Shown here: positions 1 to 11,033 of the stretch, one piece after another | How positions within the stretch are numbered: the first letter of the stretch is position 1 | Layout: each line of letters opens with the position of its first letter | Assembly (NCBI GenBank): GCA_019218315.1 | Contig: JAHUUI010000001.1 | Coordinates: 62,001 to 126,000 of the forward strand | Direction of reading: 5' to 3' | Source: Cardiobacteriaceae bacterium TAE3-ERU3 | Lineage (GTDB): Bacteria > Pseudomonadota > Gammaproteobacteria > Cardiobacteriales > Cardiobacteriaceae | Length of the DNA: 64,000 bases | Notes under the pieces: generated by a model | Database searches by the model: none | Seen by the model: only the letters and a program-made list of their open reading frames with translations | Told to the model about the DNA's origin: nothing | Program-made: the position numbers and the translations under genes

Positions 1-362
1 ACCGCACCAAAGGTACGTACGTCAAAAAAGTTCTGGCACATCCATGCAGTAACTTCGCGCGCCTTTTGTTCGTCTTTGGGCAATTTTTTCGCAACCGGCT
101 CGATATCCAATGCCTCATAAGCGCGCTTATTCTGCAAATTGAGTACGCTTTTTTCCTTGACGTAGATTTCATAACCGGGCGTATTTTCTTCGCTCATTTC
201 AATGAAATTGCGAATTTTGCGCTTGAGGCAAACGTCCGTAACCAGTCCCTTGCTGGACTCAGGATCAAGGCGTGGCATATTGCCCGCATCAGGATCGCCA
301 TTGGGATTGCCGTTCTTTACATCAAAGAAAAAGACAAATTCATAACGGTTTGCAATACTCAT
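1..362 (-). CDS. cas7c: Type I-C Cascade backbone protein Cas7c/Csd2 (partial, N-terminal part)
   Basis: Cas7 coats the crRNA spacer in the type I-C Cascade as a multi-copy backbone. Reading the minus strand from an ATG at 362 gives an open frame to the window edge (about 120 residues). It begins [15 protein letters not shown] and carries the family signature [13 protein letters not shown] near residues 18-30, which is diagnostic of Csd2-type Cas7. The start overlaps the cas8c stop by 4 bp (ATGA), so translation is probably coupled. The C-terminal half, and probably cas4-cas1-cas2 and the main array, lie left of the window. Family assignment is firm; completeness cannot be judged. Confidence 0.93.
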
Positions 363-2236
363 GATCCACTCTCCTCATCTAAATTATCCAAGTCCAATTC
401 ATCAATATTTTCAACCAGATTATCTGGTGCTTTCTTACTTCTACCAAAACGCTCAAGATAATAGCCAATCGCAAAACGCCCTTGCTCAGACAAATCCATT
501 GTTTTAGGGAAGAAAAATTCAGCATCGCCCTCATTACCACAATTTACGATATCCCCAAATTCAGTTTCTAACCATCCTGCCATATTCTTAGGGTTCTCTA
601 TCCACTTTGCTTTTTTCCCTTTACATAAGTCAGCTATATGATGATGATAATTCTTTATTAATAATGGGAAAACAGACTCTGGTCGCGCAGAAGCGCTCCC
701 ATAAAAACGCGTTTTTATACCAGCATTAATATCCCCCAATGCCGAGTTTTGCGCCATTTCTAACACGGCAAACAGCCGCCCCAGCCGATAGGCAATATCC
801 TTTGTTTCTCGATCCAAAGCCATAGAAATATTCTCCCCTTTATTGCGTACTAAAATCGCTTTAATCATTGCTACCCGCAACGGACTGACCTCTCCATCCG
901 CGCGCAAGCGACTGACAATCTTGCTCAGTAACGACAGCGGATACGGCTTGCCACTGATCACGGCACGCATCAGTTCACCGGCCAAATGTGGCGATATATC
1001 CTTGCTGTCCGATTTTTTCAGCTGCCCATTGGCATCACGCCGCTTGGGCACCGTTTCAATCAACAAGCGCCATACCGAAGGCAGCGTTCGCCACGGTACA
1101 GGATCAAGCATTAAATCGTTATAGTGGGCGGCAAAATGGCGGGTAAGCTGAATCAAATCGGTTGCTAACCAGAAACGAATTGAAATCCGCGCTGCATTGG
1201 GCGCCAAGCCCAGCACATAGCATTGGGTATCGGGATCAAGATCAGGGCGCAGTTTGCTCAATGGTTGCCCTTCTGCCAAGCGTTGCAAAAATACCGATAG
1301 CTGCTGATTTTCAGCGTCATCATCCGGCGGGCTCATCACTTCGGCAAATAAATCTTCCGCGGCTTCGGCCTGCACAGCATCATCTGCAACCGCCCAAAAC
1401 ACCGTACTGGCATCACCAATACTGACGCACTGGCCATGATCGCGATTGAGCAAATAATTCAGTGCGGTTGTGTAGGCAAAAGCCGTTGAAGCTGAAACCG
1501 GTGCGTTTTCACCCTGTGATTTACCGTAAGACTCAAACGCATCCTGATTAAATGACACAATCGAGCCACCGGACGACTGCCCGCCCCATACGCCTTTAAT
1601 CGCCGGATGAACCCTTGCTACCGCAGCAGATTGCCCATCCAAACACGGTACGGCTTCACCTTCACCACGATCGAGATATGCCGCCCAAATGGCTTGTGCT
1701 GCCGGGCGCTGATGCAAGTAGTCCATATCACCATCAAGTCGAAACACAACATTGGCATCGACCACCTCAAGCGGGCAAACCGATTCGGCAAATCGCCCCG
1801 GTTGCCAACGCTGCAAAAATGCCTTGAACGCCTGCAAACCTGCATCATCATTGTCTTCTAGCAATTCAAGGTGCCAGTCGCGGAAGGCTTCAAAGGTTTC
1901 ACGGTAGGCAGTCACCCACGGCGTTTCCTTGGCTGCCTTTTTATCCTTGTTACCTTCAATACCCAGCGTATAGGCGGTTTTATCCCACAAAAAATTGGGC
2001 TTGATGCCAGAGGCACGTTTTTCCAAATGTTTCGGCACAGCCAGCTCTTTGGCTTTGGGCTTTTTATCTGCCGTCAGGTTGGGGATAACATCAACCACTT
2101 CACCATCTTGAGACAAAACCAGAACATAACCAATTTTTTCCTGACTGTAGCCAAATGGCGGTACTTTAGGCAAACCGGCACTCGTGGTTTGGCTTGCCAA
2201 GCGCTGATAATATTGCGCCAATGCCTGCACAATCAT
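359..2236 (-). CDS. cas8c: Type I-C Cascade large subunit Cas8c/Csd1
   Basis: This 625-residue protein is in the usual size range of Cas8c (Csd1), the large subunit that reads the PAM and positions target DNA for Cas3. It starts [15 protein letters not shown], typical of Csd1, and has internal family-like stretches such as [19 protein letters not shown] and [11 protein letters not shown]. Its ATG overlaps the cas5c stop by 4 bp and its own stop overlaps the cas7c start by 4 bp, giving the compact cas5-cas8-cas7 order of type I-C. No frameshift or truncation is visible, so the effector operon looks intact. Individual PAM-reading residues cannot be assigned by eye. Confidence 0.93.
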
Positions 2237-2913
2237 GACATCACCCCTTCCGCGTGTAGTGGCGGTACGTCAATCACACCATCTTTCATTTCAGCACGGA
2301 AAAAATGCGGCGTTTGCTCTTGCCCAAAGGTAATATCGTGCAGCATCCAACCCAAATCCTTATCCGCTGCACTACCCAGCTCATGTTTCGGGAATTGTGC
2401 CGACTGCTGTGGGTCAAGCCATGCGAAATGCGCCGGAAACTCACGCACACCAAGGCATGGTTGCTGGAAGCATTGCCCCTTTTGCGCGCGCCGGTTAAAC
2501 ATACTGATGTGTTTGGCGGCTGAATTGTCCGCACTTTCGGCACCGACCAAGCGAAAATGTGCTTCAATGATATAAGCCACATCGCGCAGCACCGTCGCCG
2601 CACGCTGCTGGCGGTCTTCTTCGATGAATGTGGACAAACCGGCCGTACTCTTGCGCTTCATCGCACCGCTAACCGTACTGGCTGACAGTTTGCTACCCAA
2701 TTCATTGCGCCGTACCGACTCAAAGCGAATCGGCTTTAACACGTGAATACGGTCAATCACCCATTCAATTTGCGGCTTCCAATAGATCGCTGAAACGATG
2801 CCCCGTGCTGCAGACGGCGTCATCACATCATAACTCACACGCTCCACTTTCATCTCTGGTCGGGTAAAGCAGGCATAATCACCCCAAACATGCAACGCGA
2901 TACCATAGGCCAT
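2233..2913 (-). CDS. cas5c: Type I-C Cas5c (Csd5), pre-crRNA endonuclease and Cascade subunit
   Basis: In type I-C systems, which lack Cas6, Cas5c (Cas5d) cuts pre-crRNA 3' of the repeat hairpin and then stays on the 11-nt 5' handle. The 226-residue frame has the Cas5 N-terminal fold signature (MAYGIALHVWGDYACFTRPE) and the VSYDVMTPSAARGI segment typical of Csd5. A Shine-Dalgarno GGAG sits 7 bp before the ATG at 2913. The gene follows a 338-bp gap after cas3 that carries two repeat-like hairpins, so its message would include RNA structures that Cas5c itself recognises. It is coupled to cas8c by an ATGA overlap. Confidence 0.93.
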   Translation of the reverse strand: MAYGIALHVWGDYACFTRPEMKVERVSYDVMTPSAARGIVSAIYWKPQIEWVIDRIHVLKPIRFESVRRNELGSKLSASTVSGAMKRKSTAGLSTFIEEDRQQRAATVLRDVAYIIEAHFRLVGAESADNSAAKHISMFNRRAQKGQCFQQPCLGVREFPAHFAWLDPQQSAQFPKHELGSAADKDLGWMLHDITFGQEQTPHFFRAEMKDGVIDVPPLHAEGVMS

Positions 2914-2954
2914 GTTTTACTCCATATACTCACTTGAGCATCATCAAAATATAC

Positions 2955-3045
2955 ATTTCACGTGCCTCTTGCGAGGCACGACAATCATGAGTCAAAAATA
3001 CTCTATTACAGTTTCAATCCACTTGAAGATACTGTCCTTCAAGAC
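2955..3045 (-). CRISPR. One-unit degenerate mini-CRISPR (CreA/CreR-like guide RNA) in the cas3-cas5c gap
   Basis: Read on the minus strand, the first pseudo-repeat (3045-3011) is GT, a 7-bp stem CTTGAAG/CTTCAAG with an 8-nt loop, then TGGATTGAAAC, which is exactly an 11-nt type I-C 5' handle. A 28-nt pseudo-spacer follows (3010-2983). The second pseudo-repeat (2982-2955) begins GTCGTGCCTC and has an 8-bp stem with GCAA loop (CGTGCCTC/GAGGCACG), but its 3' part lacks about five bases (TG then AAAT instead of TGGATTGAAA). The two halves needed for one mature crRNA are thus kept, the handle in repeat 1 and the processing hairpin in repeat 2, while the dispensable halves have decayed. That is the pattern known for CreA antitoxin and CreR regulator RNAs. 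Order and strand match the cas operon. Repeat identity is seen; function is inferred. Confidence 0.85.
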
Positions 3046-3132
3046 GAAAATCTGAAATAACAAAATTGATAGCAGCAGTTTGCCACTTCCCTCGATAGAC
3101 AAGAGATAACTTTCATCGTCTCGCTTCTCCAT
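2992..3132 (-). CDS. Possible 46-codon ORF overlapping the first pseudo-repeat (unrecognised; may be chance)
   Basis: An ATG at 3132 opens a 46-codon frame that starts MEKRDDESYLLSIEGSGKLL, continues through a hydrophobic stretch (LLLSILLFQIFVL), reads through the first pseudo-repeat and stops inside the pseudo-spacer. No clear Shine-Dalgarno precedes it. A second minimal frame nearby (3176-3147, nine codons, with adjacent AGA CGA arginine codons) could be a CreT-style mini-ORF. Neither resembles a family I know. They are listed because Cas-repressed toxins (CreT) are encoded exactly at this position, between the guide's target and the guide itself. Coding status is unproven. Confidence 0.2.
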   Translation of the reverse strand: MEKRDDESYLLSIEGSGKLLLSILLFQIFVLKDSIFKWIETVIEYF

Positions 3133-3185
3133 ACTAACGCGCCACTTCAAGCCACCAAGCCTCGTCTAACCTTCATGATCAGCCT

Positions 3186-3214
3186 ATTTTATCAAGATTC
3201 TGTAGCAGAATCTA
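3186..3214 (-). promoter_or_regulatory. Candidate promoter with internal palindrome, upstream of mini-CRISPR and cas5c
   Basis: On the minus strand a TAAAAT (-10-like, 3191-3186) is preceded at 17 bp by TAGATT (weak -35-like, 3214-3209). Between them is a 7-bp perfect palindrome GATTCTG-TAG-CAGAATC (3196-3212), which could be an operator or an RNA hairpin. A better -35 match, TTTACA, lies inside the guide's seed match (3231-3226), but no good -10 sits 16-18 bp from it. A start here would place transcription just downstream of the Cascade target. Promoter identity is tentative. Confidence 0.35.
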
Positions 3215-3222
3215 TGATAATC

Positions 3223-3253
3223 TTCTGTAAAAGAGTATAAGGATATATTCTTT
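3223..3253 (+). promoter_or_regulatory. Candidate Cascade-binding site for the mini-CRISPR guide (PAM + partial protospacer)
   Basis: On the plus strand, TTC (3223-3225, the common type I-C PAM) is followed at 3226 by TGTAAAAGAGTAT. The mini-CRISPR guide begins TGTAATAGAGTAT. Positions 1-5 and 7-13 match; the only mismatch is position 6, the flipped-out base in type I Cascades; after position 13 the match ends. PAM plus seed-only pairing is what CreA and CreR guides use to bind without triggering Cas3 cleavage. The site touches the cas3 stop codon and lies upstream of the likely start of the cas5c leader transcript, so binding could repress cas5-cas8-cas7 or a small RNA made in the gap. Confidence 0.75.
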
Positions 3254-5507
3254 AAAGCACCAAATCAAACGAAGATATAAAATCAGGATTTTTCCAGCTT
3301 AAGCCAGCCCGATCATCGTAAAGCGCCAAGCCAATCAATACTGGAAACTGCTGTGCAAAGCGCTGTGGCTGGACAAATTCTACCCGCCCCGTTTCACACA
3401 AGGTCTGCAATGCTTGTTCGGGAATTTGTACCAGATACGGCTGCAAACGGCGCATTAATCCACCAATATGCTCGGCGTAATGCAGACGCTCGATTATTTT
3501 TTCTGCTTCGCCGTCAAACGGCACAATCAGCGGCAACATATAGCTATCAATCATCCGGAATTGCTTGGTAATATCCTGAAAAGGGAAATCCAGACTTTTT
3601 GCCGAACCGGTATGCAGTTCAACCAAGCGATGTTTGTCCAATTCATTACCCATTTGCGCATAGATGCGCTGGAAGTAGTAGGTCATCGCTGCTGTTGATA
3701 ACGCATCATCGTGGTGACGCAAGGTTTCGCGCATGATCGCTGCCAAGAATTTGATGCTCGGCGGCGTCGGCCAGCCCACAGGGGCAAATACCCACACTTC
3801 ACTGTCTTCTGCCGATCTCTTTCCTTCACGGTTACATCGCCCCGCCGCCTGTGCCACAGAATCCAGCCCCGCTTCAGCACGCATCACAAACGGGAAATCT
3901 ACATCAACACCACACTCAATCAAAGACGTACTGACCAAGCGACATGGTAAACCGTCACACAAACGTTGCCTTACTTCGGCCAGCACTTGCTGGCGATGCG
4001 CCGCACACATCAGCGTAGTCAGGTGATAAACCCCATCCAGATCAGCCGCTGCTTCATACAACGCACGCGCATGGCGGCGATTATTGACGATCAGCAGCAT
4101 TTGCTCGTGTTGTGCAAGGATATCGTGCAATGCGGTATCGTCTTTTTCGCCAACGTGATGCACCGTCACGCGCTTGAGCTCAGTAAAAAGCTTTTCCGGT
4201 TCAGGCGCAATTTCCCGTACCTGCTCAAAGCCATTATAAAAATCATTCTCTTGCTGAATAGCGGGCTGGGTCGCGGTACATAACACAACGCTACAGCGGT
4301 AATTCAACGCCAATTCATCAATAGCCGCCATAATTGGGCGCAATAAGGTCAGTGGGATCATTTGCGCTTCGTCGAGAATAATCACGCTACCGGCGATATT
4401 GTGTAATTTTCGACACTGTGAAGAACGGTCAGCAAATAACGATTCAAAAAATTGCACCGCCGTCGTGACAACCACTGGTATTGACCAGTTTTCCGATGCA
4501 CGACGTAATTTATCGCGCGTTTCCTCATCTTTGATACTGCGGTCGTCAAACGCACTGTGGTGTTCCAATACGGCTTCTGTACCCAAAGCACCAAAAGCAC
4601 GGCGAAAAACAGCCGCATTTTGCTCGATAATGCTGGTGTAAGGAATCACATAAATAATGCGCCGCATCTCTTGCTGCAAGGCATGGCGTAAAGCAAAAGC
4701 CATCGAGGTCAATGTCTTGCCGCCACCCGTGGGCACAGTCAAGGTGAATAATCCTGCCGCTAACCCCGATTGCGCTACGGCATGGTCGAGTATGTGGTTA
4801 CGCAACGTATTAATCGAACCATATGTGGTGCTTTGTGTACGTAAACCATCCATATAACTTTGGAAGGCGTCATTCAGTGCGCCAAGTGATGGCGGCTCAT
4901 TTAATTGAACCGTATTGCCCTCAAGTTTTTCGTAATAATGCTGCGTATCAAGATAGTCTGCATCAACCAAGCACGAATAAATCATACGGGTCAGCATGGC
5001 CATACTGAATCCGGCTATTTTTTTTCCTGGCTTAAGGGATGGTGCGGTAAGCGTAGCAGGCAAGGCAATTTCTTCTTGCCACAAATCGTCAAGCACTTCC
5101 AGATCAGATCCAAATTGCAAATCCAGACGTTGCTCTAACGTACGCCGCTTATCGCCCTTTTGTACCGCATTCGCCAATCCAGCATGATGACCGGCAATCA
5201 CAAAAGCCAGTATTTTTGCCAAAGCCACTTCAAGCCGATTTGCTGCCCACTTTTCAACCGCTATTTTTGCACCCGCAGTAGCGTGATCGACACTGCTACC
5301 ACCGCGCAAACGTTGCTGATAGCGTGCGCTGTATTTACCCAAATCGTGCAATTTACCGGCAACTTCAGCCAGCTCTTGGGCTCCGAACACACGGGCAAAC
5401 TCACCCGCTACAAGCCCCACTGCAAGCAGGTGATCGTCTAGCCGTTGCCAATCTGACTCGTCACCTTCCGTGCCAGAATGGGCAAAATAGGTTTGCTTGC
5501 TATCCAT
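3252..5507 (-). CDS. cas3: CRISPR-associated nuclease-helicase Cas3 (type I-C, HD + SF2)
   Basis: Cas3 is recruited by target-bound Cascade and unwinds and degrades DNA. The roughly 750-residue protein has an N-terminal HD nuclease domain (DDHLLAVG, HDLGKYSARY, DHATAGA, AGHHAGLAN) and then SF2 helicase motifs: Walker A TVPTGGGKTLTS, the Asp-Glu box LDEAQMIP, STSLIECGVDVDFP and motif VI QAAGRCNREGK. All key residues appear intact. The frame can open at a TTG at 5510, but the ATG at 5507 is preferred; it shares one base with the upstream stop (TGATG), implying coupling to the HugZ-like gene. Its stop abuts the candidate Cascade target in the gap before cas5c. Confidence 0.95.
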   Translation of the reverse strand: MDSKQTYFAHSGTEGDESDWQRLDDHLLAVGLVAGEFARVFGAQELAEVAGKLHDLGKYSARYQQRLRGGSSVDHATAGAKIAVEKWAANRLEVALAKILAFVIAGHHAGLANAVQKGDKRRTLEQRLDLQFGSDLEVLDDLWQEEIALPATLTAPSLKPGKKIAGFSMAMLTRMIYSCLVDADYLDTQHYYEKLEGNTVQLNEPPSLGALNDAFQSYMDGLRTQSTTYGSINTLRNHILDHAVAQSGLAAGLFTLTVPTGGGKTLTSMAFALRHALQQEMRRIIYVIPYTSIIEQNAAVFRRAFGALGTEAVLEHHSAFDDRSIKDEETRDKLRRASENWSIPVVVTTAVQFFESLFADRSSQCRKLHNIAGSVIILDEAQMIPLTLLRPIMAAIDELALNYRCSVVLCTATQPAIQQENDFYNGFEQVREIAPEPEKLFTELKRVTVHHVGEKDDTALHDILAQHEQMLLIVNNRRHARALYEAAADLDGVYHLTTLMCAAHRQQVLAEVRQRLCDGLPCRLVSTSLIECGVDVDFPFVMRAEAGLDSVAQAAGRCNREGKRSAEDSEVWVFAPVGWPTPPSIKFLAAIMRETLRHHDDALSTAAMTYYFQRIYAQMGNELDKHRLVELHTGSAKSLDFPFQDITKQFRMIDSYMLPLIVPFDGEAEKIIERLHYAEHIGGLMRRLQPYLVQIPEQALQTLCETGRVEFVQPQRFAQQFPVLIGLALYDDRAGLSWKNPDFISSFDLVL

Positions 5508-5983
5508 CAACAGTTTTCCGGTATATCAAATGATTTGCCAAAGCCGAGGATGAGTTGTCCGCCTTCGGGGATTAAGCGGATAAGATGAAAGTCGCCGAGG
5601 CCGCGCAGCAGTTCGACGGTTTTGCCGTGACGGGTTTGCAGCGCGTCGAGTAAGGCTTGGTAATCAGTATGATTACGGGAAATGGTTTCGGCACGAACGG
5701 GTTGGGTCATGCGGCGGCGCGAATAGATGTTGCCGGTTGCGGATTCATCTTTAAGCAGCATAATTTGTCCGCGTCCGTCAGCCAGCAATGCTTTGGTACG
5801 CGCGGCAAGTGTCGAGATAAAGATGTAATAGCAACCATCTTGAAAGACAAACGGCGCATGGCTGAGCTGGTTGTCGCCACAGCTCAAAATCAGACCAAGG
5901 CAGCTGTCGCGCAGTTCGGCGACGTAATTGGCTTCTTGCTCGGTAAAGGGTTGACGCAGTTTTTGCGCTTCTGAATTACTCAT
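5507..5983 (-). CDS. HugZ-like pyridoxamine-5'-phosphate-oxidase-fold protein
   Basis: This 158-residue single-domain protein looks like the FMN-binding split-barrel family that includes HugZ/HutZ heme-utilisation proteins. Early segments (LGLILSCGDNQLSHAPFVF, YYIFISTLAARTKALLADGR) resemble that fold. The C-terminal LILGFGKSFDI resembles the glycine-rich tail of HugZ-type heme oxygenases. It probably binds heme or flavin in the cytoplasm; the substrate is not determinable. It overlaps the TPR gene by 4 bp (ATGA) upstream and cas3 by 1 bp downstream. That is odd for a metabolic gene next to cas3 and suggests that cas3 landed in, or co-opted, this operon. Confidence 0.75.
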   Translation of the reverse strand: MSNSEAQKLRQPFTEQEANYVAELRDSCLGLILSCGDNQLSHAPFVFQDGCYYIFISTLAARTKALLADGRGQIMLLKDESATGNIYSRRRMTQPVRAETISRNHTDYQALLDALQTRHGKTVELLRGLGDFHLIRLIPEGGQLILGFGKSFDIPENC

Positions 5984-6743: not shown

Positions 6744-7208
6744 ATGAGCAAGAAAATGAATGTTGAGAGCTTTAATCTCGACCACACCAAGGTCAAGGCG
6801 CCCTATTTACGCCTTGCCGACAAGAAAACTGGTGATAACGGCGATGTAATTTATAAATACGATTTACGCATTTGCCAGCCAAATAAAGATCACATGGATA
6901 TGCCTGCACTGCACTCTTTGGAGCACTTGATGGCTGAATTGTCGCGCAACCACAATGAGCACGTACTCGATATTTCCCCAATGGGCTGCCAGACTGGATT
7001 TTATGTATCGCTGATTAACGAGCCAGATTATCAGACCGCGCTGGACATGATCGAAGATACGTTAAAGGACGTGCTGGCGGCGACTGATGTACCAGCGTGT
7101 AACGAAGTACAATGCGGATGGGCTGCAAGCCACTCACTCAAGGGCGCTCAAGAATTGGCACAAGCGCTGCTCGATAAGCGTGATGAATGGGAAGAAGTAT
7201 TTGCCTGA
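6744..7208 (+). CDS. luxS: S-ribosylhomocysteine lyase LuxS
   Basis: LuxS splits S-ribosylhomocysteine into homocysteine and DPD, the precursor of autoinducer-2, in the activated methyl cycle. The 154-residue length is usual for the family. The metal-binding HxxEH motif appears as HSLEH (about residues 57-61) with the later metal-ligand region [13 protein letters not shown] (Cys about 129). The active-site region GCQTGFY is also present. A strong AGGAGG lies 8 bp before the ATG. It is a monocistronic gene between a divergent promoter region and a bidirectional terminator. Confidence 0.96.
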
Positions 7209-7274
7209 TATAGCCAAACGCCTTTAACTGCATACAGTATTGTACGAAGTTTCGTTCAGCTATAGATAATGAGA

Positions 7275-7316
7275 TACAAAAAGCCGCTACGGTAAAACGC
7301 AGCGGCTTTTTTGTAT
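7275..7316. terminator. Bidirectional rho-independent terminator between luxS and yfaE
   Basis: The arms TACAAAAAGCCGCT and AGCGGCTTTTTTGTA form a long stem with A/T tracts on both sides. It can end luxS transcription (plus) and the nrdA-nrdB-yfaE transcript (minus), which converge here. Confidence 0.9.
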
Positions 7317-7322
7317 ACGGAT

Positions 7323-7592
7323 TTAGGCTGTACGTAATGCAGCGATAAAATCAATATCCAGAACAATATCGGTTTTTGGAATCGCACAGCAGGCGATGAC
7401 TTCGCCGGGCATGGCAAATGCCAGCGGCGTACGTACATAGGTAAATTCGCCCTGCACGCGTACCCGACAACTGCCGCAATAACCTTCGCGACATTGGTAC
7501 TCAACCGCATGGCCAGTACGCTGCAAGCCATCAAGCAGCGTTTCTCCCGGCCGGAGGGTAAAGCGATGATTGTTGGTCTTGATCTGGCTCAT
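7323..7592 (-). CDS. yfaE: 2Fe-2S ferredoxin YfaE, diferric-tyrosyl cofactor maintenance for NrdB
   Basis: YfaE-type ferredoxins reduce the NrdB di-iron site to maintain its tyrosyl radical. The protein of about 89 residues shows plant-type [2Fe-2S] ligands CREGYCGSC plus a later Cys (IACCAIP). I place the start at the ATG at 7592 (MSQIKTNNHRF), one base after the nrdB stop; longer upstream readings run into nrdB. Its position behind nrdB is the standard nrdAB-yfaE operon. Confidence 0.9.
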   Translation of the reverse strand: MSQIKTNNHRFTLRPGETLLDGLQRTGHAVEYQCREGYCGSCRVRVQGEFTYVRTPLAFAMPGEVIACCAIPKTDIVLDIDFIAALRTA

Positions 7593-7593
7593 A

Positions 7594-8745
7594 TTACAGC
7601 TCGAAATCATCCAAATCGTCCATATTGACTTCCGAGTCAATCTGACCAATCAAGTAAGAACTGATTTCCACTTCCTGTGGCGCAACTTGCACGTTGTCTG
7701 ACGACAGCCATGCATTGATCCACGGAATTGGGTTTTGCCGTGAATTTGGGAATGCAGGCTCTAGCCCAACGGCTTGCATGCGTAGGTTGGTGATGTATTC
7801 AACGTACTGGCAAAGAATATCGCGATTAAGCCCGATCATCGAGCCATCCTTGAATAGATAGTCAGCCCAGTCTTTTTCCTGCTCGGCCGCGAGTCGGAAA
7901 ATCTCAAACGCATCATGCTCACACTCTTTGGCAATTTCCGCCATTTCCGGGTCGTCTTGACCACTGCGCAAGATATTGATCATGTGCTGGGTACTGGTCA
8001 AGTGCAGGGCTTCATCACGCGCAATCAGTTTGATGATTTTGGCATTACCTTCCATCAATTCGCGCTCAGCGTAAGCAAATGAGCAGGCAAAGGACACGTA
8101 GAAACGAATCGCTTCCAGTACGTTAACGCACATTAAGCACAGATAAATCTTCTTCTTCAGCTCACGCTCATTAACCACACATTTTTTTCCATTCAGGGTG
8201 TGCGTGCCATAGCCAGCAAGCAAGTAGCGTTGGGTGTACTCAATCAGGTCATCGTAGTACTTAGCGATGTCTTGCGCACGTTTCTGAATGTATTCATTCT
8301 CGACAATGTCATCAAATACAAGGCTAGGATCATTGACGATATTACGAATGATGTGTGTATACGAACGCGAGTGGATGGTTTCTGAAAATGACCACGTTTC
8401 AATCCATGTTTCCAATTCAGGTATAGACACCAACGGCAACAAAGCCACATTCGGACTGCGCCCCTGAATTGAATCAAGCAAGGTCTGGTATTTCAAATTA
8501 CTGATGAAAATATGCTTTTCGTGCTCGGGCAGGTTCTGGTAGTCGATACGATCTTGTGAGACGTCGATTTCCTCCGGTCGCCAAAAAAACGACAGCTGCT
8601 TTTCAATCAGTTTTTCAAATACTTCGTACTTTTGCTGGTCGTAACGTGCAACGTTAACCGGTTGACCAAGAAACATTGGCTCGAGTAACTGGTTATTTTT
8701 CTGTTTGGAAAACGTGCTGTAACGGTATTCACATGCTTCGGTCAT
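7594..8745 (-). CDS. nrdB: Class Ia ribonucleotide reductase beta subunit NrdB
   Basis: NrdB holds the di-iron tyrosyl radical that starts deoxyribonucleotide synthesis in NrdA. The 383-residue product (E. coli 376) has the helices carrying the metal ligands ([44 protein letters not shown]). The C-terminus, [11 protein letters not shown], is the acidic-hydrophobic tail that docks on NrdA. The start at 8745 is chosen over an upstream one because AGGAG lies 8 bp before it. It follows nrdA by 11 bp. Confidence 0.95.
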
Positions 8746-8756
8746 CGTGTGGCTCC

Positions 8757-11033
8757 TTATATTTTGCAGGCGCCGCCGGCACAATCGTCGGCGATGTCGT
8801 CCTGGCTATCGGCTGCCCCATCACGCGTGTTGTGGTAATACAGGGTCTTAACGCCCAGTTTATAGGTCAACAATAAATCCTTAATCAGCTGGTTCATCGG
8901 TACTTTACCGCCCGGGAAGCGCTGTGGATCGTAACTGGTGTTGGCTGAAATGGTCTGATCGACGAACTTCTGCATCACGGCAACCAGCTGTAAATAGCCT
9001 TCGTTGCCCGGCATTTGCCATAACAGCTCATAGGCATTTTTCAGGTTAGCGAAGTCCGGCACGACCTGCTTCAAAATGCCGTCTTTCGAGGCTTTAACCG
9101 ATACAAATCCACGTGGTGGCTCGATACCATTGGTCGCGTTGGCAATCTGGCTCGATGTCTCTGACGGCATCAGCGCACTCAAGGTTGAATTACGCAGGCC
9201 ATGAGTGACAATTTCTTCGCGCAACGCTTCCCAATCAAGCTGTAAAGGTTCATTACAGACATTATCGAGTTCCTTTTTATAGGTATCGATTGGCAATTTA
9301 CCTTGGCTGTAAGTCGTCTCGTTAAATGCCGGACAAGCACCCTTCTCTTTTGCCAACTGATTGGATGCCTTAAGCAAGTAATATTGAATGGCTTCAAACG
9401 CGCGATGAGTTAAGCCCAATGCCGAGCCATCGCTGTATTTAGCACCATTTTTGGCCAGATAATACGCGTAGTTGATGACGCCAACGCCAAGCGTACGGCG
9501 CTTGCGCGTCGCATTGTGCGCGGCTTCAACCGGATAATCCTGATAATCGAGTAGTGCATCCAAAGCACGGACGATCAAGTCAGCCACCGGCTCAATCTCG
9601 CTTAAATCTTCAAATGCGCCAAGGTTAATCGCTGACAACGTACACAAGGCAATCTCGCCTTCTTCATCGTGCAGATCATTAAGCGGTTTGGTTGGCAGTG
9701 CAATTTCCATACATAAGTTGGACTGGCGCACTGGTGCAACAGCTGGATCAAACGGGCTATGCGTATTGCAGTGGTCAACGTTCTGAATGTAGATACGCCC
9801 TGTTCCGGCGCGCTCTTGCAGCATCAGTGAGAATAAATCGACGGCGGGCACACTACGCTTACGGATACTGTCGTCTGCTTCATATTGCTCATACAAGCGC
9901 TCAAACTCTGCCTGATCCGCAAAAAATGCGTCATAAAGGCCTGGAACGTCTGACGGCGAGAACAAAGTAATATTCTGCTTTTTCAAGAGGCGCTGATAAA
10001 GCAAGCGGTTAATCTGTACACCATAATCCATGTGGCGGACGCGGTTCGCTTCGACACCACGGTTATTTTTCAATACCAACAAAGACTCAACTTCAAGATG
10101 CCACATTGGATAGAACAAAGTCGCAGCACCACCGCGTACCCCACCCTGCGAACAACACTTGACCGCAGTTTGGAAATGCTTGTAAAACGGGATACAACCA
10201 GTATGGCGCGCTTCACCGCCGCGAATCTCACTGCCCTCGGCGCGAATCCGGCCAGCATTAACGCCAATACCCGCGCGCTGTGAGACGTAGCGCACAATCG
10301 CACTTGAAGTAGCGTTAATCGAATCAAGGCTATCGCCACACTCAATCAACACACATGAACTGAACTGGCGCGATGGCGTGCGCACACCGCTCATGATTGG
10401 CGTTGGCAGAGATAGTTTGAACGTGGATGCTGCATCGTAGAAACGCTTGACGTAATCAAGGCGAGTTTCTTGAGGATAGCTGGCAAACAAGCACATCCCA
10501 ACCAGCATATAAAGGAACTGTGGGCTTTCGTATACTTCACCAGTCACGCGGTTCTGCACCAAATATTTGCCCTCAAGCTGCTTCACCGCAGCATAGGCAA
10601 AGTTCATGTCGCGCCAGTGATCAATATAGTCATTCAGCTCGTTGAATTCAGCTTCGCTGTAATCACGCAAAATATGCTGATCGTATTTACCATGCTCAGT
10701 GAGCTTTTGGACATGCTGATAAAAGTGTGGCGGCTCGAACTCACCATAGGCGATCTTGCGCAGGTGAAAAATCGCCAAGCGTGCTGCGAGATACTGATAA
10801 TCGGGTGTTTGCTCAGAAATCAGGTCAGCGGCTGCTTTAATGATCGTCTCATGGATATCATCGGTACGGATGCCATCGTAAAACTGGATATGCGAACGCA
10901 GCTCAACCTGCGATACGGAAACATTGTCCAGACCTTCAGCGGCCCAAGCAATGACGCGATGAATTTTGTCGAGATCAATCTTCTCTTTGCGCCCGTCGCG
11001 CTTAGTAACCTGTAAATGCTGAAAATCTACCAT
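8757..11033 (-). CDS. nrdA: Class Ia ribonucleotide reductase alpha subunit NrdA
   Basis: NrdA reduces ribonucleoside diphosphates in the cytoplasm. The 758-residue protein begins with an ATP-cone allosteric domain ([20 protein letters not shown]). It carries the catalytic [10 protein letters not shown] segment (Asn-Cys-Glu triad), the active-site Cys in [14 protein letters not shown] and the C-terminal redox pair in [11 protein letters not shown] start it at the ATG at 11033 ([11 protein letters not shown]), 5 bp after GAGG, rather than at a codon 15 bp upstream. It is first in nrdA-nrdB-yfaE, and its leader contains the palindromic operator described next. Confidence 0.95.

Follow-up and report, generated by a model that had tools for sequence, protein, structure and literature searches.

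A putative CRISPR-regulated module between cas3 and cas5c of a proteobacterial type I-C system

Introduction

CRISPR-regulated (Cre) modules of the CreTA/CreR type are known from subtypes I-B, I-E, I-F and V-A. The earlier creTA genes are reported to surround cas6 (PMC10097628), and the closest described relative of the module presented here is the I-F CreTA of Acinetobacter sp. WCHA45 (PMC10097628). For type I-C, we found no report of a Cre module in the open full-text literature; the supplements of the original CreR, CreTA and CrePA papers may mention I-C.

Here we analyzed a stretch of 64,000 nucleotides (the window) from a contig of Cardiobacteriaceae bacterium TAE3-ERU3, which includes the gap between cas3 and cas5c of a type I-C locus. 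In our reading this gap is probably a type I-C Cre module, with a small cargo that Cascade would repress together with cas5c-cas8c-cas7.

Results

A crRNA-like unit and its target lie in the same gap

The window begins within a type I-C set that is complete and intact, consisting of cas3, cas5c, cas8c, cas7, cas4, cas1, cas2 and the array. Type I-C systems have no cas6, and their crRNA processing enzyme is Cas5c. The cas genes, the mini-CRISPR and its target are placed as follows.

3252-5510, minus strand: cas3 (HD nuclease and helicase), intact
2233-2913, minus strand: cas5c (TIGR01876)
359-2236, minus strand: cas8c (TIGR01863)
1-362, minus strand: cas7, running past the window edge, followed by cas4, cas1, cas2 and the array
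3223-3225, plus strand: PAM TTC, read from the sequence
3226-3238, plus strand: target (protospacer) TGTAAAAGAGTAT, with which guide positions 1-5 and 7-13 pair
3011-3045, minus strand: psi-R1, a degenerate repeat with a 7-bp stem and the handle GTGGATTGAAAC
2983-3010, minus strand: psi-S, the guide, about 28 nt, TGTAATAGAGTATTTTTGACTCATGATT
2954-2982, minus strand: psi-R2, a second degenerate repeat with an 8-bp GC-rich hairpin and a decayed handle

The repeat of the array reads GTCGCCCGTTACACACGGGCGCGAATTGAAAC. The last 8 nt of psi-R1 are identical to it, and the handle ends in ATTGAAAC as in the array, while the hairpin of psi-R2 has a predicted energy of -15.3 kcal/mol (z -4.7). As in CreTA and CreR, a crRNA-like unit with two degenerate repeats is thus found outside the array. 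An Rfam search of the gap returned nothing but a sub-threshold match to a CRISPR repeat.

From the cas3 stop (3252) to the cas5c start (2913) the gap measures 338 bp, the length given in the original prediction. The guide starts with TGTAATAGAGTAT (3010-2998, minus strand), behind the repeat-like GTGGATTGAAAC, and its target is located 13-26 bp past the cas3 stop. Over these 13 nucleotides the only mismatch is at position 6, and nothing is paired from position 14 on. The letters therefore confirm the TTC-flanked 12-of-13 match that had been described, including its end after position 13. The placement of the target in a "leader region" has to be corrected: the site is in the putative promoter region after cas3 and not in the leader of the canonical array, which is found about 6 kb downstream, past cas2.

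To serve as a null model, the gap was shuffled 20,000 times with its dinucleotides preserved, and positions 1-5 and 7-11 were taken as the seed. None of the 20,000 shuffles contained a 12-of-13 match with TTC, whereas 23 contained a 12-of-13 match without the PAM and three contained TTC followed by a 10/10 seed. The pattern of PAM plus seed, TTCTGTAANAGAG, has a single occurrence in the 2.41-Mb genome, which is the target in the window. These counts uphold the earlier statement that such a match is very unlikely by chance. A coincidental match without function can point to the PAM-less 12-of-13 matches, seen in about 0.1% of shuffles, but it has to contend with the empty count for TTC-flanked matches and with the sole full-seed site in the genome. 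It is also contradicted by the recurrent co-variation with constant geometry that is described below, and we regard it as extremely improbable.

Guides and targets co-vary among type I-C loci

Loci with cas5c were sampled from two sources: 80 were fetched by sequence from named genomes and about 60 came from genome searches. Most cas3-cas5c junctions are of two kinds, being either near-continuous (about 10 bp or an overlap) or interrupted by a gap of several hundred base pairs, which inserted genes have enlarged in some loci. As a test set we used 42 non-redundant loci with a cas3-cas5c gap of at least 150 bp. For each locus, every guide behind a repeat-type handle was compared with TTC-flanked sites at positions 1-5 and 7-11. 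A seed match of 10/10 within the own gap was found in 11 of the 42 loci, compared with 2 of 1,722 cross-pairs with the gaps of other loci. Co-variation of guide and target in relatives had been set beforehand as the refuting test of the original prediction. At a seed match of at least 9/10 it is evident, with 20 of 42 own pairs against 12 of 1,722 crossed ones. About half of the 42 gapped loci fail the strict seed test. A search that did not require the handle recovered the same guides and pairs.

Four pairs with 8-9/10 (L041, L060, L066 and L113) were doubtful and were set aside, and only L113 (9/10) is among the 20. Not counted in the 20 were the non-TTC pairs of L020, L047 and L051 (TTT) and of L004 (TTA, 16-nt exact match). 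L009, L010 and L074 possess a mini-CRISPR ahead of cas5c; cas3 lies beyond the fetched locus and no target was placed.

The guide-target pairs span alpha-, beta- and gammaproteobacteria. Guide sequences differ by lineage, each fitting its own target, as the following examples illustrate.

Lysobacteraceae: guide TATGATTGATA
A Cardiobacteriaceae MAG: guide AGTTCGATTGA
Neisseria dentiae: guide AATTTCATGTG
Rhodobacteraceae: guide TCTCGATGTGA
Cardiobacterium valvarum: guide AATTTAGTGTA

Pairing with other letters recurs in more than 20 other bacteria. The geometry is shared, with the target right behind cas3 (mostly 12-45 bp past the stop) and the guide right before cas5c.

Pairing is lost at positions 6, 12 and 18

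The pairing profile was calculated from 26 curated pairs; six of them were identified by eye, and four of these six have a non-TTC PAM. The match fraction reaches 1.0 throughout positions 1-5 and falls to 0.31 at position 6; it is 0.88-0.96 at positions 7-11, 0.31 at position 12 and 0.92 at position 13, and goes down to 0.35 at position 18. Importantly for this profile, positions 6 and 12 played no part in the selection of pairs. Dips at 6, 12 and 18 are the pattern expected if the type I R-loop flips every sixth base. Across the pairs, pairing stops at about position 13-17; it covers 13 positions in the window as compared with 16-17 in most relatives. In type I-C of Xanthomonas, where TTC is the experimentally confirmed PAM, killing needs at least 27 bp (PMC8406640). 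A match of 13 nt should therefore give binding without destruction of the DNA, in line with what had been claimed for seed-only pairing.

The limited pairing could also be a sign of decay. The mini-CRISPR would then be the remnant of a module that has fallen out of use, its pairing kept by recent descent; pairing shorter than in most relatives, the loss of the canonical handle from psi-R2 and the poor cargo ORFs (see below) would all fit. However, both hairpins are intact, and degenerate repeats are normal for published creA genes (PMC8501985, PMC9458426). Moreover, all positions that are read still pair even though the letters differ from those of every relative, and the cas genes are intact. 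We consider a remnant improbable.

Promoter-like elements lie next to the PAM

Three features occupy the region between the target and the mini-CRISPR.

3186-3214, minus strand: candidate promoter with -35 TAGATT (3214-3209), 17 nt, and -10 TAAAAT (3191-3186)
3189-3220: near-perfect palindrome TTATCATAGATTCTGCTACAGAATCTTGATAA, 32 nt (z -3.3)
3046-3185, minus strand: cargo slot X, from the target promoter to the mini-CRISPR, at the same position as the cargo of relatives

The candidate promoter, whose start is 8 nt past the PAM, is weak: a stricter consensus scan missed it and gave a single promoter-like hit, which was on the wrong strand. The claim of a promoter is therefore drawn from the comparison across loci. 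For the family, targets opposite to the cas5c strand were scanned for the best sigma-70-like promoter starting at most 15 nt beyond the PAM. Such promoters start 0-10 nt beyond the PAM, mostly at 1 or 7-9 nt (14 loci), and the promoter-like hexamers there score higher than elsewhere in the gaps of these loci (p = 3e-5). Judged by its family, the target in the window would likewise be located at a promoter.

The palindrome is situated between the target and slot X and overlaps the candidate promoter. It may be an operator or a hairpin, and a further regulator may bind it.

Neither a terminator nor a separate cas5c promoter was evident, so that cas5c-8c-7 would be repressed as well. This repression might be all there is: as in CreR, the guide would then control the module and cas5c-cas8c-cas7 only, slot X would be a 5′ untranslated region, and the feedback would keep Cascade at a set level until released by competition among crRNAs or by an anti-CRISPR on Cascade. 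Promoter, guide and cas5c indeed follow one another on the same strand, transcription from the promoter would reach cas5c 300 bp further on, and in L068 the target is found directly upstream of the cas5c promoter. Regulation of this kind is known for I-B, I-E and V-A (PMC13131331). On the other hand, junctions that lack the module are continuous, cas3 and cas5c being about 10 bp apart, so cas5c can do without the target promoter.

Relatives carry peptides and defence genes in the slot

In relatives, a gene sits between the target and the mini-CRISPR. The following cargo was found.

L008, L011, L013 and L014 (Cardiobacteriaceae, Neisseria): DUF2188 (PF09954; PADLOC PDC-S16), called by library search in two of the four loci and by eye in the other two
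L005: SIR2-like protein, by eye, with a weak PDC-S21 match
L004 (Rodentibacter sp. Ppn85), 6993-9800: SIR2_2 and HerA ATPase, between cas3 and cas5c
L002/L006: NA37 protein and two unknowns
L029, L033, L037, L051 and L055, inverted in L068 (alphaproteobacteria): cationic peptide family
L118 and L123 (gammaproteobacteria): homologous single-TM peptide family, about 50 aa
L149, L112 and L113: TM peptides, the L113 pair being doubtful
L060 (Cohnella sp.), gap 274-358: holin-like toxin PF16935 (E 3e-9)

Some of the short-peptide entries were read by eye from the printed sequence. Many slot peptides carry good Shine-Dalgarno sequences. The peptide of L112 is encoded on the opposite strand and points away from cas5c, and the entire module of L068 is inverted. 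Both arrangements indicate that the target consistently goes with the promoter of the cargo.

Several loci deserve individual mention. The presence of DUF2188 in a guided slot suggests a CRISPR-repressed toxin or defence effector. In L004, a site right behind cas3 is matched over 16 consecutive nt (PAM TTA) by the mini-CRISPR that precedes cas5c, and SIR2_2/HerA are apparently a defence pair under CRISPR control. The alphaproteobacterial cationic family is undescribed, about 27-40 aa in length, and follows the pattern M-RRR...R.-IG...E-E-PP. L118 and L123 have near-identical guides (TGTCAGTTAGTAAT), and their targets overlap a TTGACA promoter element. L060, from a Firmicute, has a repeat-like unit near cas3 and a doubtful guide-target pair. 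The gap of L001 (Haemophilus quentini, 7251-9915) contains ThsA (SIR2-STALD) and two smaller TIR-like ORFs recognized by eye, a Thoeris-like set beside a frame-broken cas3, and that of L007 contains DUF262-like genes (by eye); no mini-CRISPR pair was found in these two gaps. The gap of L109 (54-600) holds the type II antitoxin Phd/YefM (PF02604), followed downstream by a frame that looks PIN-like by eye.

In the window, three reading frames were identified in or near slot X.

2992-3150, minus strand: candidate cargo ORF of 52 aa, with a TTG start and one hydrophobic segment
3039-3116, minus strand: alternative cargo ORF of 25 aa, with an ATG start and GGAG 10 nt upstream
3147-3176, minus strand: alternative mini-ORF of 9 aa (MKVRRGLVA) with the tandem Arg codons AGA CGA

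These peptide ORFs of 9, 25 or 52 aa are weak candidates for the cargo. Their start signals are weak, and the 52-aa ORF overlaps psi-R1 and the guide. No homologues of the 52-aa ORF were detected in phages or in genomes of the family, Pfam gave nothing, and a comparison of the gap DNA with plasmids revealed no relatives.

That the cargo searches in the window found no identifiable gene would suit repression of the cas genes only. Against it, the same slot in relatives is occupied by genes of a defence or toxin-like kind or by peptides that have a good Shine-Dalgarno sequence, and the target-adjacent gene of L112 faces away from cas5c. The small peptides and defence genes in the slot of relatives make a repressed toxin or back-up defence likelier than pure autorepression of cas genes, which we rate as unlikely.

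Discussion

The Cre module with a repressed cargo, which we favor, builds on the pairing, the co-variation, the layout and the intact cas genes observed in the sequences; from these we infer that the module is transcribed, that Cas5c processes the guide, that the promoter is repressed and that the cargo is toxic. Cas5c would cut the two degenerate repeats to release a crRNA-like guide, and Cascade loaded with it would bind the TTC-flanked target through positions 1-5 and 7-13. This pairing would be too short for cleavage by Cas3 and sufficient to block the promoter beside the PAM, from which transcription would run through the cargo in slot X and on into the mini-CRISPR and cas5c-cas8c-cas7. 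With active Cascade, the cargo would stay silent and read-through to the mini-CRISPR and cas5c-8c-7 would be lowered. Loss of Cascade, or its occupation by an anti-CRISPR, would release the cargo together with cas5c-8c-7, with an outcome as in CreTA (addiction) or CrePA (an abortive response).

The Cascade-dependent repression that the original prediction had placed at the cas3/cas5c junction gains support from the co-variation, the losses at 6/12/18 and the promoter-like elements. Repression itself is what we infer from them, and regulation more likely concerns the slot cargo than the cas genes alone. Thus, a second role of Cascade as a gene repressor at the module is supported by these comparisons, and the repressed gene is probably a toxin-like cargo.

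On a broader scale, the cas3-cas5c gap of proteobacterial I-C loci might be a slot in which mini-CRISPR-led Cascade silences a second weapon, mostly small peptide toxins of a membrane or cationic type and in some loci innate defence genes (SIR2-like, SIR2-HerA, DUF2188, NA37 clusters), with an undescribed peptide in the module of the window. We offer this generalization tentatively, being somewhat more doubtful than convinced of it. If true, anti-CRISPRs that disable Cascade would turn on a back-up weapon. The module itself would extend the use of CRISPR effectors as RNA-guided repressors to type I-C, a common subtype. From the dozens of natural guide-target pairs one could read the rules by which pairing leads to repression and not to cleavage, and the variable cargo would amount to a list of candidate toxins and innate defences possibly freed by anti-CRISPRs.

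Among known systems, the I-F CreTA of WCHA45 likewise sits in a gap that separates cas3 from the leading Cascade gene (there csy1, about 400 bp away), and it has two degenerate hairpin repeats, a PAM-flanked partial target at a promoter (a putative one in the window) and a mini-ORF in the gap. It differs in its subtype, its CC PAM and its processing by Csy4, where the window has I-C, TTC and, as expected, Cas5c. Furthermore, its mini-ORF faces away from creA and its toxin has been tested, whereas the candidate cargo in the window is in line with the guide. The I-B CreTA of Halobacterium hubeiense and Haloarcula hispanica shares the pairing at positions 1-5 and 7-11, the TTC PAM and the order psi-R1/psi-S/psi-R2 right upstream of the cas operon (PMC8501985); it is archaeal and processed by Cas6, and its toxin is a small RNA that sequesters a tRNA (PMC8501985).

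CreR of types I-B, I-E and V-A, as cited in PMC13131331 and PMC12737573, is similarly a mini-CRISPR whose complementarity to a cas promoter is limited; the texts consulted do not list I-C among its subtypes. CreR is without cargo, whereas the window has a cargo slot. In CrePA (PMC12737573), Cascade with a crRNA-like guide represses a protein cargo, which makes it the model for relatives with DUF2188, SIR2 or SIR2-HerA cargo. The CrePA toxin is KilA-N; the loci studied here carry other cargo families, and a KilA-N protein was not seen among them. Since type I-C uses cas5c and not cas6, and the module adjoins cas5c, its position fits the rule that creTA is located near the processing gene. We assign the module in the window to the known CreTA/CreR class, as a type I-C variant and not as a new category; what could be new is the range of cargo under such control.
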